Shown here: positions 7,178 to 34,399 of the stretch, piece by piece | How the letters are laid out: every line of letters starts with the position of its first letter | Position numbering within the stretch: position 1 is the first letter of the stretch | Assembly (NCBI RefSeq): GCF_000219725.1 | Contig: NC_015732.1 | Location: forward strand, 434,001 to 498,000 | Direction of reading: 5' to 3' | DNA: 64,000 nt | Source: Gracilinema caldarium DSM 7334 | Lineage (GTDB): Bacteria > Spirochaetota > Spirochaetia > Treponematales > Breznakiellaceae | Notes under the pieces: generated by a model | Databases searched by the model: none | Told to the model about the DNA's origin: nothing | What the model saw: the letters and a program-made list of their open reading frames with translations, nothing else | Program-made: the position numbers and the translations under genes

Positions 7178-8002
7178 ATGGGTATTAGAACATTTAAGCC
7201 GGTAACTGCGGGTATGCGGCATCGGATTAGCCTGGATTACTCGGAGATTACAACAAACAAACCCGAAAAATCCCTGACCAGCGGTCGTGCTGAAAAGGCA
7301 GGCCGCGGTGCAAAGGGACGGATCAGTGTCTGGCATAAGGGTGGCGGGCATAAGCGGCGCTATCGGGAAATTGATTTTAAGCGTGATAAAATTGGTGTTC
7401 CCGGTAAGGTTGCTACTATCGAATATGATCCAAACCGCAGTGCAAATATCGCCCTTGTCAATTATGTAGATGGTGAGAAACGCTATATTATAGCTCCGAA
7501 AGGATTAACCGTTGGTACTCAAGTTATGAGTGGTCCTGACGCTGCTCCTGAAGTTGGAAATGCGTTGCCCCTGGAAAATATTCCACTTGGGTTTACCATT
7601 CACAATATTGAGCTTTCTCTCGGTCGTGGTGGACAGTTGGTCCGTTCGGCTGGTGCTGGCGCTATGGTCGCTGCAAAAGAAGGCGATTATGTAACCGTAC
7701 GGCTGCCTTCTGGTGAAATGCGAATGGTCTTTAAGAAATGCTACGCCACTATCGGTGAAGTAGGAAACGAAGACCATATGAACGTTCAGCTTGGTAAGGC
7801 TGGACGGAAACGCTGGATGGGCGTTCGGCCTACTGTTCGTGGTATGGCGATGAACCCGATTGATCACCCCCATGGTGGTGGTGAAGGTCGTAATAAGGGT
7901 TGTAATCCTGTTACTCCCTGGGGTCAGCCTACTCGTGGTTATAAGACCAGGAATAAGCACAAGCCTTCTTCCCGGTTTATTGTCAGCCGCAGAAAGAAAT
8001 AG
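7178..8002 (+). CDS. rplB: 50S ribosomal protein L2
   Basis: L2 is a primary 23S rRNA-binding protein required for subunit joining and peptidyl-transferase activity. The ATG at 7178 ([14 protein letters not shown], 274 aa) matches the family start; a TTG 12 bp upstream is less likely. Seen in the sequence are [17 protein letters not shown], the [20 protein letters not shown] block and the HPHGGGEGR motif with the functional His. The C terminus is strongly basic (IVSRRKK). It is followed by rpsS after 9 bp. Confidence 0.97.
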
Positions 8003-8011
8003 GAGCGAAGG

Positions 8012-8293
8012 GTGTCAAGATCAGTAAAGAAGGGGCCCTTCATTGAGAAGAGCCTGTACAAGAAAGTAATTGAAATGGGAAAAAGTGGTGAACGGAAGAT
8101 GATTAAAACATATTCTCGTTGTTCCACCATTATCCCTGAAATGGTTGGTAATACGATTTCCGTATATAACGGAAAAAGCTGGGTTCCGGTTTATGTGACA
8201 GAGAACCTGGTCGGTCACAAGCTTGGTGAATTCGCACCCACCCGAATCTTCCGGGGGCATGCGGGTTCAGACAAGAAGGCCGCTAAGAAGTAG
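8012..8293 (+). CDS. rpsS: 30S ribosomal protein S19
   Basis: S19 forms part of the 30S head, pairs with S13 and contacts the A-site finger. The 93-residue protein starts [15 protein letters not shown] from a GTG at 8012, with AGGAG six bases upstream deciding the start. The motifs [19 protein letters not shown] and [16 protein letters not shown] are diagnostic. It lies between L2 and L22 as in most bacteria. Nothing unusual is seen. Confidence 0.96.
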
Positions 8294-31824: not shown

Positions 31825-33036
31825 ATGCAGTACTTTACCGATGATTTTATCCAGGCCATACCGAAAACGGATCTACATGTCCATCTGGACGGTAGCCTCA
31901 GAATTGGTACCCTCATCGACCTCGCTAAGGCCTCCGGTGTCTCTCTGCCTGCCATGGACGAGGCGGGTCTGCGAAAAACCGTATTTAAGGATTCCTATCA
32001 GAATCTGGAAGAATATCTGGCTGGTTTTGCCTATACCACGGCGGTACTCCGCAGTCGGGACGCCCTATATCGGGTTTCTTATGAACTCTTTATGGATAAT
32101 GCCGCCGAAGGAGTCCGTTATCTCGAAGTTCGCTTTGCACCGCAGCTCCTCATGTCAGAGACCCTCAGCTTCCAGGATGTAATGGAAGCCGTTGACCAGG
32201 GGCTCAGAGATGCAAGGGATAAGCTGAACCGCCATAGGCCCAGCAACGAACCTGCCTACGACTATGGTATTATCGCCTGTGCCATGCGCTTTTTTACTAA
32301 AGACTTTTCTCCCTATTACCGGGATTACAGCCGGATGCACGAGTTTTCTTCCCCTACGGAAATCATCAGCGGGGCCAGTCTCGAACTCGCCAAAGCGGTA
32401 GTCCAACTGCGGGCCCATTCATCAATCCAGATTGTTGGTTTCGATCTGGCCGGTGCAGAATATGGCTACCCTGCCAGTGATCATCAGGCGAGTTATGAAC
32501 TGGTTGAGAAGGGGTTTCTTCATAAAACGGTCCATGCGGGGGAAGCCTTTGGTCCCGAAAGCATCTTTCAGGCGGTGACGAAACTGCAGGCCGACCGTAT
32601 CGGCCACGGGCTCCACCTTTTTGATGTGGACCTTATCCGCAGTTCACACGAACAGGATCCGGAAACCTATGTAAAAGAGTTGGTCAATTATATCGCCAAC
32701 CGGCGCATCACCGTGGAAGTATGCCTCACGAGCAATATGCAGACTACGCCGGACCTGAAAAGCCTGGAACAGCACTCCTTCCGGCGGATGCTTGAACAGA
32801 AACTTTCGGTAACCCTCTGCACCGACAACCGCCTCGTTTCTAACACCAGCCTCTGCAAGGAGTACCGCCTTGCCCTGGATACCTTCCCTATCACAGCCCA
32901 TGACCTTAAAAACATGATTGCCTACGGCTTTAAGCGATCCTTTTACTACCACCCCTATCCCCAGAAACGGGCCTGGGTCCGCTCGGTTCTGGATTATTAC
33001 GATCGCATCGCCCGGCAGTTTGGAATCAGAGAATAG
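31825..33036 (+). CDS. add: Adenosine deaminase family protein
   Basis: This metal-dependent hydrolase converts adenosine to inosine in purine salvage. The 403-residue protein has the zinc ligands and catalytic residues expected: HVH (TDLHVHLDGS near residue 18), HAGE near 238, the RIGHG motif near 253 and the C-terminal TDN (LCTDNRLVSNT), where classical enzymes have TDD; the TDN form is known in several bacterial Add proteins. It is longer than the common ~340 because of insertions around residues 130-160. It is transcribed divergently from the TPR gene by its own promoter. Confidence 0.88.
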   Translation: MQYFTDDFIQAIPKTDLHVHLDGSLRIGTLIDLAKASGVSLPAMDEAGLRKTVFKDSYQNLEEYLAGFAYTTAVLRSRDALYRVSYELFMDNAAEGVRYLEVRFAPQLLMSETLSFQDVMEAVDQGLRDARDKLNRHRPSNEPAYDYGIIACAMRFFTKDFSPYYRDYSRMHEFSSPTEIISGASLELAKAVVQLRAHSSIQIVGFDLAGAEYGYPASDHQASYELVEKGFLHKTVHAGEAFGPESIFQAVTKLQADRIGHGLHLFDVDLIRSSHEQDPETYVKELVNYIANRRITVEVCLTSNMQTTPDLKSLEQHSFRRMLEQKLSVTLCTDNRLVSNTSLCKEYRLALDTFPITAHDLKNMIAYGFKRSFYYHPYPQKRAWVRSVLDYYDRIARQFGIRE

Positions 33037-33162
33037 TGAGGGCGGGTGAGGGGGTATTGAAGGCTCCTATTGTATCCCTTACATCCCGTTATCAGTTTGT
33101 CGGACTTGTCCTAAAGGCTGCTCGCCATATCATCAACGGGATGTTATTTATGGTTATCATAG
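33037..33162. other. Non-coding gap downstream of add with a 10-bp inverted repeat
   Basis: ACATCCCGTT (33081-33090) and AACGGGATGT (33135-33144) form a perfect 10-bp inverted repeat separated by 44 bp. No U-tract follows, so it is not a typical terminator. No ORF is seen. The attC-like site begins at its right side. Confidence 0.5.
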
Positions 33163-33260
33163 GATTAACCTGCGAAACCTACATGGCGCGGTTTGTGCCA
33201 GGCGAAGCCTGACGCACATAACCGTGCCATAGGCGACTCAGGTTGAAGCGATTGTTAAGC
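33163..33260 (-). mobile_element. attC-like integron recombination site
   Basis: Read on the minus strand, the site starts with GCTTAAC (33260-33254, a perfect RYYYAAC box) followed by AATCGCTTCAACCTGAG, close to the TAACAAnnCGnnTCAA wording of classical attC sites. It ends with GTTAATC (33169-33163, near GTTRRRY). Between them the arms pair imperfectly: AACCT with AGGTT, then an 11-bp inner stem (33183-33193 with 33220-33230, one G-U), GTGC/GCAC and CAGGC-GAA-GCCTG, with unpaired bases mainly on one side. It lies 44 bp after the antitoxin stop, in the same orientation as that gene, where a cassette attC belongs. No integrase gene is in the window. Confidence 0.6.
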
Positions 33261-33303
33261 GTCTTTTTGTTCCCAATTCTCTAAAACAATATCATCAATT
33301 TTA

Positions 33304-33516
33304 TTAAATACTTTTCAAGATGTCTTCTGCGGTAATAAACTTCTTATTTATTTCATCACTTTCAAATCGTTCTATAAACTCTCGATCTATATAATCTTCG
33401 TACATCTCCATTATTGAATCCCTAATGAGTGTCGATTTATCTTTTTCTAGGTGTTCAGATAGGAAAGATACTATCTTCTCTTCTTCACTATTTAACCGTA
33501 CAGATATTACTGCCAT
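33304..33516 (-). CDS. Ribbon-helix-helix antitoxin (RelB/CopG-like)
   Basis: The 70-residue protein begins with a ribbon-helix-helix pattern (MAVISVRLNSEEEKIVSFLSEH) followed by STLIRDSIMEMYEDY, as in RelB/ParD-type or DUF6290 antitoxins, and has an acidic C-terminal arm that could wrap the toxin. It overlaps the toxin gene upstream by 10 bp and is expected to repress the operon and neutralise the toxin. The order toxin-then-antitoxin is the reverse of most type II systems. Its stop lies 44 bp from the attC-like site. Confidence 0.8.
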   Translation of the reverse strand: MAVISVRLNSEEEKIVSFLSEHLEKDKSTLIRDSIMEMYEDYIDREFIERFESDEINKKFITAEDILKSI

Positions 33517-33782
33517 TTCTTATAAATCTCCTCTCTCTTATCAATTGTAATAACGAAAATATCTTCTTCCTGTATATAGAAAATCGCGCGATACTTCCCT
33601 TTTCTCAAACGATGATATACTCGATTTTTCTCTTCAGCTATCTTCAGTTGCTTTATATCAAAAAGACTTAAGTCCTTTGTTAAGTCTAATGACATGAATG
33701 CATTATTAAAATGCACAAAAATCTCTTTTGGGATTTGGCCTTTCTTGATGCGCTTTAAAACTTCTTCAAGATATCTGACCAT
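33507..33782 (-). CDS. RelE/ParE-superfamily toxin
   Basis: The 91-residue protein has the RelE-fold pattern, with a C-terminal half reading KNRVYHRLRKGKYRAIFYIQEEDIFVITIDKREEIYKKW; the Arg/Lys-rich beta strands are typical of mRNA-cleaving RelE toxins and the last strand ends in the usual D/R-rich motif. It is translated first and overlaps the antitoxin gene by 10 bp. A promoter-like pair (TTGAAA, 17 bp, TACATT) lies just before the ATG, with no Shine-Dalgarno. A+T content is higher than in neighbouring genes, fitting an acquired cassette. Confidence 0.8.
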   Translation of the reverse strand: MVRYLEEVLKRIKKGQIPKEIFVHFNNAFMSLDLTKDLSLFDIKQLKIAEEKNRVYHRLRKGKYRAIFYIQEEDIFVITIDKREEIYKKWQ

Positions 33783-33788
33783 GTTTAC

Positions 33789-33817
33789 AATGTACTACAC
33801 TTATAGCGAAATTTCAA
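33789..33817 (-). promoter_or_regulatory. Candidate promoter of the toxin-antitoxin pair
   Basis: On the minus strand TTGAAA (33817-33812), 17 bp and TACATT (33794-33789) precede the toxin ATG at 33782 by six bases. Confidence 0.4.
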
Positions 33818-33856
33818 CTATTATATAAGGGGTGACAGTCAAGATAGATTACGCCC

Positions 33857-34399
33857 TCACTCCAGTATCGCCCTTTCCCAGAGGGTTAACTTATCTTCGA
33901 GTCGTCTAAACTGTTTTGTCGGTACCGGACTCGTCGATGGGAGCCTGTAGACAGAAATTACTCTTTTCTGCGGCCCTTCCCAGGTCCGAATTGAACCTAT
34001 AGGGGGGAGGGCCCCCCTGTGCCCCAGTATTTTGCGGTAAAAGAGCTCTGCCGCAAGACTTCCGTTTAAAAGAATGCGGACTATGGCCGTATGAGCCGCT
34101 ACAAGGCCTGTAATATCATTCAGAACTGGTTCCATGATATTCTGGTCCAGACTGCCGATCCGCTCGCAGGAAGCCACCAGGTCCCAGAGGGCAAGCTGTC
34201 CCGCCGTAAGCAGGGCCCGCTTTTCATCAATACTGACCGGTACCGAAGCCTTACAAATGCGGGCCAGGATGGGCCAAAAATGGTTGCGGCCATGTCCATA
34301 ATACATTCCACATTCCAGGCTTGCTGTGCTCGGAAAGGACCCTAAGATGAGAAGCCATGCATCCTGAGCTATAATTGGCGGAAATCCATGCAGTCGCAT
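33857..34399 (-). CDS. DNA glycosylase of the hypoxanthine-DNA glycosylase type (UDG superfamily)
   Basis: The 180-residue protein resembles the DNA-deoxyinosine glycosylase family, which removes hypoxanthine formed by adenine deamination. The N-terminal motif LILGSFPSTASLE near residue 17 and YYGHGRNHFWPIL near residue 33 carry the conserved Ser, Tyr, His, Arg and Asn. LLNGSLAAELF and the LPSTSP motif near residue 155 complete the fold. No Shine-Dalgarno is seen; a TATTAT box lies nine to ten bases before the ATG. It lies downstream of the groEL terminator. The assignment to the hypoxanthine rather than the Mug type rests on the first motif. Confidence 0.75.
   Translation of the reverse strand: MRLHGFPPIIAQDAWLLILGSFPSTASLECGMYYGHGRNHFWPILARICKASVPVSIDEKRALLTAGQLALWDLVASCERIGSLDQNIMEPVLNDITGLVAAHTAIVRILLNGSLAAELFYRKILGHRGALPPIGSIRTWEGPQKRVISVYRLPSTSPVPTKQFRRLEDKLTLWERAILE

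Follow-up and report, generated by a model that had tools for sequence, protein, structure and literature searches.

The window analysed here, a 64-kb stretch of the Gracilinema caldarium chromosome, contains a solitary and partly decayed integron recombination site, an attC (33152-33260, minus strand), directly behind a type II toxin–antitoxin pair. Pair and site together form a block between two resident genes that are neighbours in three congeners, and the same chromosome carries a complete integron with attC sites of the same type. Given the anatomy of the locus and published precedent, the block is likely to be a lone cassette (toxin, antitoxin and attC) that was placed at G^ATAAC, a secondary site of the attG type, by the resident IntI or by a closely related integrase. 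Several other stray cassettes are dispersed around the chromosome.

A decayed attC site and its toxin–antitoxin cargo

The initial annotation had recognized an attC with an RYYYAAC box directly behind the toxin–antitoxin pair, and this was borne out by three kinds of evidence. A covariance model trained on 28 attCs of the genome's own array, with the window attC left out of training, gave a single match in the 64 kb, at 56.9 bits (E 1.9e-10 genome-wide), far above chance. BLASTN with positions 33150-33275 as the query, over the entire genome (one contig, 3,239,340 bases), found 26 places, mostly on the plus strand between 1,929,880 and 1,981,825, which proved to be attC sites; the best non-self match (83% over 103 nt, E 8e-23) was the attC of array cassette 40, followed by about 20 more array sites, the best identities to array attCs being about 80-83%. 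As single-stranded DNA the site folds 4.95 sd better than its dinucleotide shuffles (z -4.95). A search of the locus against Rfam gave no match. The identity of 33152-33260 as an attC is, on this evidence, virtually certain. Being a strong hairpin that follows a stop codon, the site could also be a terminator, or a dispersed hairpin repeat that resembles an attC, but this is highly improbable: it is contradicted by the covariance-model results, as the score is specific and the R and L boxes are in register, while the relatives of the site are almost only the 3' ends of integron cassettes and the site itself is absent from congeners.

When aligned, the array attCs show the order R'' (NNCTAAC), spacer, L'' (GCTTCAACCTG), stem, L' (CAGGTTAAGC), spacer AAAT and R' (GTTAGRY and similar). 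The minus strand of 33152-33260 reads GCTTAACAATCGCTTCAACCTGAG...CGCAGGTTAATCCTATGATAACC. It starts with an R'' box, GCTTAAC (33260-33254), that conforms to RYYYAAC and aligns to model positions 1-7, and this is followed by an L'' box, CGCTTCAACCTG (33239-33250, minus strand), which in both the model and the array alignments has the unpaired C of the array attCs. The L' box, CAGGTTAATCC (33162-33172, minus strand; CAGGTTAAGCG in the array), was placed by the alignments and the fold, and contains the GTTAATC (33169-33163) that had initially been taken as the near-GTTRRRY end of the site. A reading of GTTAATC as the R' box was discarded, since its counterpart in the aligned array sites is L'; in the model alignment the R' position is occupied by GATAACC (33152-33158, minus strand), with crossover expected after G33158, and the site ends at 33152 rather than 33163, R' having been misplaced by 11 nt. 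An R' box GTTRRRY with a G^TT crossover is absent from the window attC. The GATAACC at this position would be expected from decay, or from a flank that had been a G^AT secondary site. Because the R' sequence is off-consensus, it is homology that places the site among the attCs, and the term decayed attC is used for it.

Decay is also seen in the fold. A nested imperfect stem is present on the minus strand, and the inner stem, the AACCTG/CAGGTT pairing and the unpaired C are all kept, whereas the R''/R' and outer L (CGCTT/AATCC) pairings are missing, the latter having been broken by two changes in the L' box. Both of these pairings do form in the controls, which were two array attCs and another stray attC. 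With these pairings lost, the attC is real but decayed, and, judging from its folding, it is probably no longer excisable. The alternatives offered initially, a solitary cassette or a relic, therefore both apply.

The site lies on the same strand as the pair, 43 bp 3' of the antitoxin stop (33304 versus 33260), and the genes read towards it, in agreement with the orientation and position first described. The antitoxin (33304-33516, minus strand; 70 aa) is a DUF6290/RelB-like protein (PF19807, 43 bits over cut-off; NF046040 RelB, 30.7 bits, below cut-off). The toxin (33507-33782, minus strand; 91 aa) matches no Pfam family, and ParE scores 14.7 bits, below cut-off, but its predicted structure (AlphaFold2, pLDDT 90.6) has a RelE fold. 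In a Foldseek comparison it came closest (TM about 0.70) to RelE from the RelBE complexes of two archaea, M. jannaschii and P. horikoshii. The protein is presumably active as a toxin. A putative promoter for the pair, TTGAAA-17 nt-TACATT (33789-33817, minus strand), can be read in the sequence within the cassette, and the same layout, TTGAC.-17-TACA.T, is found upstream of related pairs such as those of L123 and L124.

No convincing homologue of either protein was found elsewhere in the genome, array included; relatives of the pair have a scattered occurrence, both in spirochaetes and in other phyla. The closest toxin relatives are those of L123 (80%) and L124 (78%), with that of L186 being more distant (62%). 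An attC match lies directly behind the homologous pair of L123 (52.5 bits) and behind that of L186 (52.7 bits). L124 gave no match to the attC covariance model, but an attC-like start with R'' and L'' lies behind its pair, shortly before the contig end, and its candidate left end, GTTAGAAAT, is complementary to its R'', ATTTCTAGC, but for one base. No attC was found with most other relatives of the pair. The sites behind the L123 and L186 pairs, and the attC-like start in L124, indicate that the pair serves, at least partly, as cargo of cassettes in this lineage. The attCs of L186 (3477-3588) and L123 (3499-3608), which come from other spirochaete MAGs, are each the sole model match of a locus of about 6 kb, and these attC-tagged pairs are possibly also stray cassettes.

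Insertion between two resident genes

The block is flanked by an adenosine-deaminase-like gene (31825-33036, plus strand; PF00962) and a uracil-DNA-glycosylase-superfamily gene (33857-34399, minus strand; PF03167). Their counterparts in three same-genus genomes are 89-90% and 58-66% identical, respectively, and are adjacent to each other, with a spacing of about 185 bp compared to 820 bp here. Neither the toxin–antitoxin pair nor the attC is present at the counterpart locus of these three genomes, so the block is an insertion, and the initial concern that the site might be conserved in relatives without the toxin–antitoxin genes was not substantiated in the three congeners. The block is very probably an inserted solitary cassette.

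At the right junction, GATAA (33158-33154) fits the consensus of secondary sites, GWTMW (PMC4618277), and cleavage between the G and A of GAT has been described for such sites (PMC10127599). For the other border, the initial annotation had pointed to GTTGAAA (33818-33812). This is the best candidate, since the GTT at 33818 is the sole minus-strand GWT triplet between the stop codon of the glycosylase gene and the start of the toxin gene (33857-33782), and the likely left junction, G^TT (33816-33818, minus strand), would give a cassette of 660 bp (33817-33158). The sequence is, however, complementary to its own R'' box, GCTTAAC, at just 4/7 positions, as against 7/7 in 37 of the 42 array cassettes, and the -35 box of the putative toxin–antitoxin promoter falls at the same place; the exact left border is therefore provisional. 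The intergenic DNA of the three empty loci is too diverged for a base-by-base alignment, or for an exact position of the junction. Decay at one end, or a composite origin, must be assumed to account for the mismatch at the left end.

The same mismatch, unlike what a clean single cassette would show, might suggest that the block is a fragment of a larger array, which stayed behind or was brought in through a rearrangement such as deletion, inversion or transposition; array cassette 7 does hold a transposase, and the stray locus at 3233 kb lies near a transposase remnant. This is unlikely, given that the gene order is as in the three congeners with only this block added, that a second attC or an attI-like sequence was not found in the window, and that no insertion-sequence end was recognized at the block borders.

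Insertion of a single cassette, as preferred here, would proceed by circularization of the cassette and folding of its attC as a single strand, after which IntI would join the attC, at G^TT, with a G^AT triplet of the intergenic region. The empty target would then have read ...TATAATAG|ATAACC.... The pair could be expressed from its own putative promoter, in which case the integron promoter would not be needed, and the attC may afterwards have lost its R and outer L pairings while the addictive pair stayed fixed. The complete integron in the genome, the empty congeners, the attC-tagged relatives of the toxin, the fit of GATAACC to GWTMW and the other off-array attCs all favour this explanation. 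Counting against it are the 4/7 complementarity of the left end and the lack of a convincing array homologue of the pair, so that the donor array is a presumed one.

A 10-bp perfect inverted repeat, ACATCCCGTT/AACGGGATGT, with 44 nt between its arms (33081-33144), adjoins the attC end of the cassette.

The resident integron and other stray cassettes

The initial annotation had noted that no integrase is nearby, which holds for the vicinity of the 64-kb window but not for the genome, as a search for intI and further attCs found both. An intI gene (1,926,820-1,927,779, minus strand; TIGR02249, 375 bits, cut-off 265), the only one in the genome above the family cut-off, lies 1.46 Mb from the window attC. 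The covariance model finds 42 array attCs between 1.929 and 1.980 Mb, all on one strand; being palindromic, some of them give weak opposite-strand matches as well. A promoter (Pc) and an attI-like region are located beside intI, at about 1,928,387, with the junction to the first cassette being GATG^TTAGAA. The cassettes are read on the plus strand, so that intI and the cassettes diverge. Type II toxin–antitoxin pairs occupy at least 11 of the 42 array cassettes; six are VapBC-like and four Phd/ParE (both as repeated cassettes), and one is another VapBC. Across the integron (1926820-1980102; L032-L034) many cassettes are repeated two to six times, the first encodes an Mrr-type restriction enzyme (PADLOC mREase_IV), and the transposase of cassette 7 is of the DDE type.

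Since this array holds no copy of the pair, whose relatives have a scattered distribution among spirochaetes and other phyla, it might be supposed that the cassette came on foreign DNA, or from the integron pool of another species, and was then recombined in. This is quite improbable, as the attC is of the resident array type (83% identical to that of cassette 40), and phage or conjugative genes were not seen among the neighbours examined. An insertion by the resident IntI, or a close relative, is the preferred explanation.

Across the whole genome, the covariance model also detected four full off-array attCs besides the window attC. Three of the other stray loci have full attCs and one has a truncated attC, with toxin–antitoxin genes in most of them. 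At 1,789,743 (minus strand) the cassette carries an orphan gene for a protein of 362 aa, behind an attI copy whose match to the main attI is 77% over 108 bp. The sites at 3,018,427 and 3,019,220 (minus strand) lie in a locus where a 44-bp attI-like block precedes a MazEF-type pair and an orphan gene. A PemK-type pair at 3,233,215 (minus strand) has no attI-like sequence, while at 132 kb (minus strand) a VapBC-type pair with a truncated attC is located behind 38 bp of attI-like sequence. The presence of attI-like copies ahead of three of these four loci is the more unusual part. The PemK-type cassette (L078, about 7200-8100) lies near the end of an apparent gyrase-A-like gene and near an apparent remnant of the same transposase as in array cassette 7. 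The VapBC-type pair at 132 kb corresponds to L116, about 629-1538, and its attC is cut off after the first half.

The attI/promoter-like copies (GGGGTATAATA...GATG^TTA), none of which is accompanied by intI, are found at 1790970-1791077, 3020050-3020093 and 132251-132288 (L112, L113 and L116), each preceding one or two stray cassettes. A reading of GGGGTATAAT before the stray cassettes as a generic -10 promoter was rejected, there being three copies in 191 kb, all at attI or attI-like sequences.

The full stray attCs resemble different array attCs (81-91%), and to judge from these sequences this would speak for several separate dispersal events. Toxin–antitoxin pairs occur in four of six off-array cassettes against 11 of 42 in the array, an enrichment that is not significant (Fisher p 0.067). 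It can tentatively be speculated, although the odds are rather against it, that IntI has seeded single cassettes chromosome-wide, at secondary sites and at integrase-free, duplicated attI/promoter platforms, and that the escapees which persist are mainly toxin–antitoxin pairs, fixed by the decay of their attCs.

Relation to known integron systems

A single attC that lacks a nearby integron integrase is termed a SALIN (PMC12690207), and IntegronFinder 2.0 accepts that such single-attC cases can be true (PMC9024848). The window, with one attC in 64 kb, one cassette and no intI nearby, agrees with this description, but its attC is partly decayed, and another part of the chromosome holds an integron with attCs of the same type. 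Among known categories the locus fits best with the SALINs, as a solitary attC cassette located at a probable secondary site; the claim is limited to a decayed member, since the R' sequence and the left-end complementarity both depart from those of intact cassettes.

Experiments in E. coli have mapped insertion at attG sites, in ordinary chromosome sequence (Loot et al. 2024, Nat Microbiol 9:228, as cited in PMC12901181 and PMC12690207), and cases of aadB at secondary sites are among those cited in PMC10127599. The present locus is alike in having a single cassette outside attI and the array, a GAT junction triplet that fits GWTMW, and native genes on both sides. It differs in being reconstructed from a natural spirochaete chromosome rather than from an experiment, in being an old insertion, and in having a provisional left junction. 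Solitary attCs are already known, as are secondary-site and off-locus cassettes (PMC10127599, PMC12444791, and Loot et al. 2024 through PMC12901181), and what is added here is a new natural case. Natural, fixed cases beside an integron with the same attC type are useful evidence that the secondary-site route shapes genomes. One chromosome with several off-array loci of resident-type attCs, one of them with an empty counterpart in congeners, and with graded attC decay, makes it testable how escaped cassettes become ordinary genes.

The chromosomal integron of V. cholerae includes 19 toxin–antitoxin cassettes with their own promoters (PMC11023631), and the cargo described here is similar, a type II pair with its own, in this case putative, promoter. 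Lying outside the array, however, this pair cannot stabilize it as array-borne pairs are thought to do. Among Xanthomonas, dispersed CALINs (PMC12444791) are likewise off-locus groups of attCs without intI, in genomes with a present or former integron, but the cassettes in the present genome are single or double, several have type II pairs and some are located behind attI-like copies.

Chromosomal integrons with attC arrays are also known from the spirochaete genus Treponema (Wu et al. 2013, PMC3607928), although there intI is read towards attI, while here intI and the cassettes diverge from it, and the attCs are 99-134 nt long in this genome compared to 63-68 in T. denticola (PMC3607928). The 2013 survey (PMC3607928) does not mention this species, and an incomplete literature search found no paper linking the species with integrons. 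Provisionally, then, this 42-cassette integron, which is outside the Treponema species of that survey, is apparently unreported.

Another repeated sequence in this genome, (C)AGTTTGTCGGACTTGTCC, is present in the window at 33094-33113, in L073-L076, at L077:10733 and at L078:6162. It often occurs directly behind a TAG triplet, and three of its approximately seven copies are within about 1.1 kb of stray cassettes.
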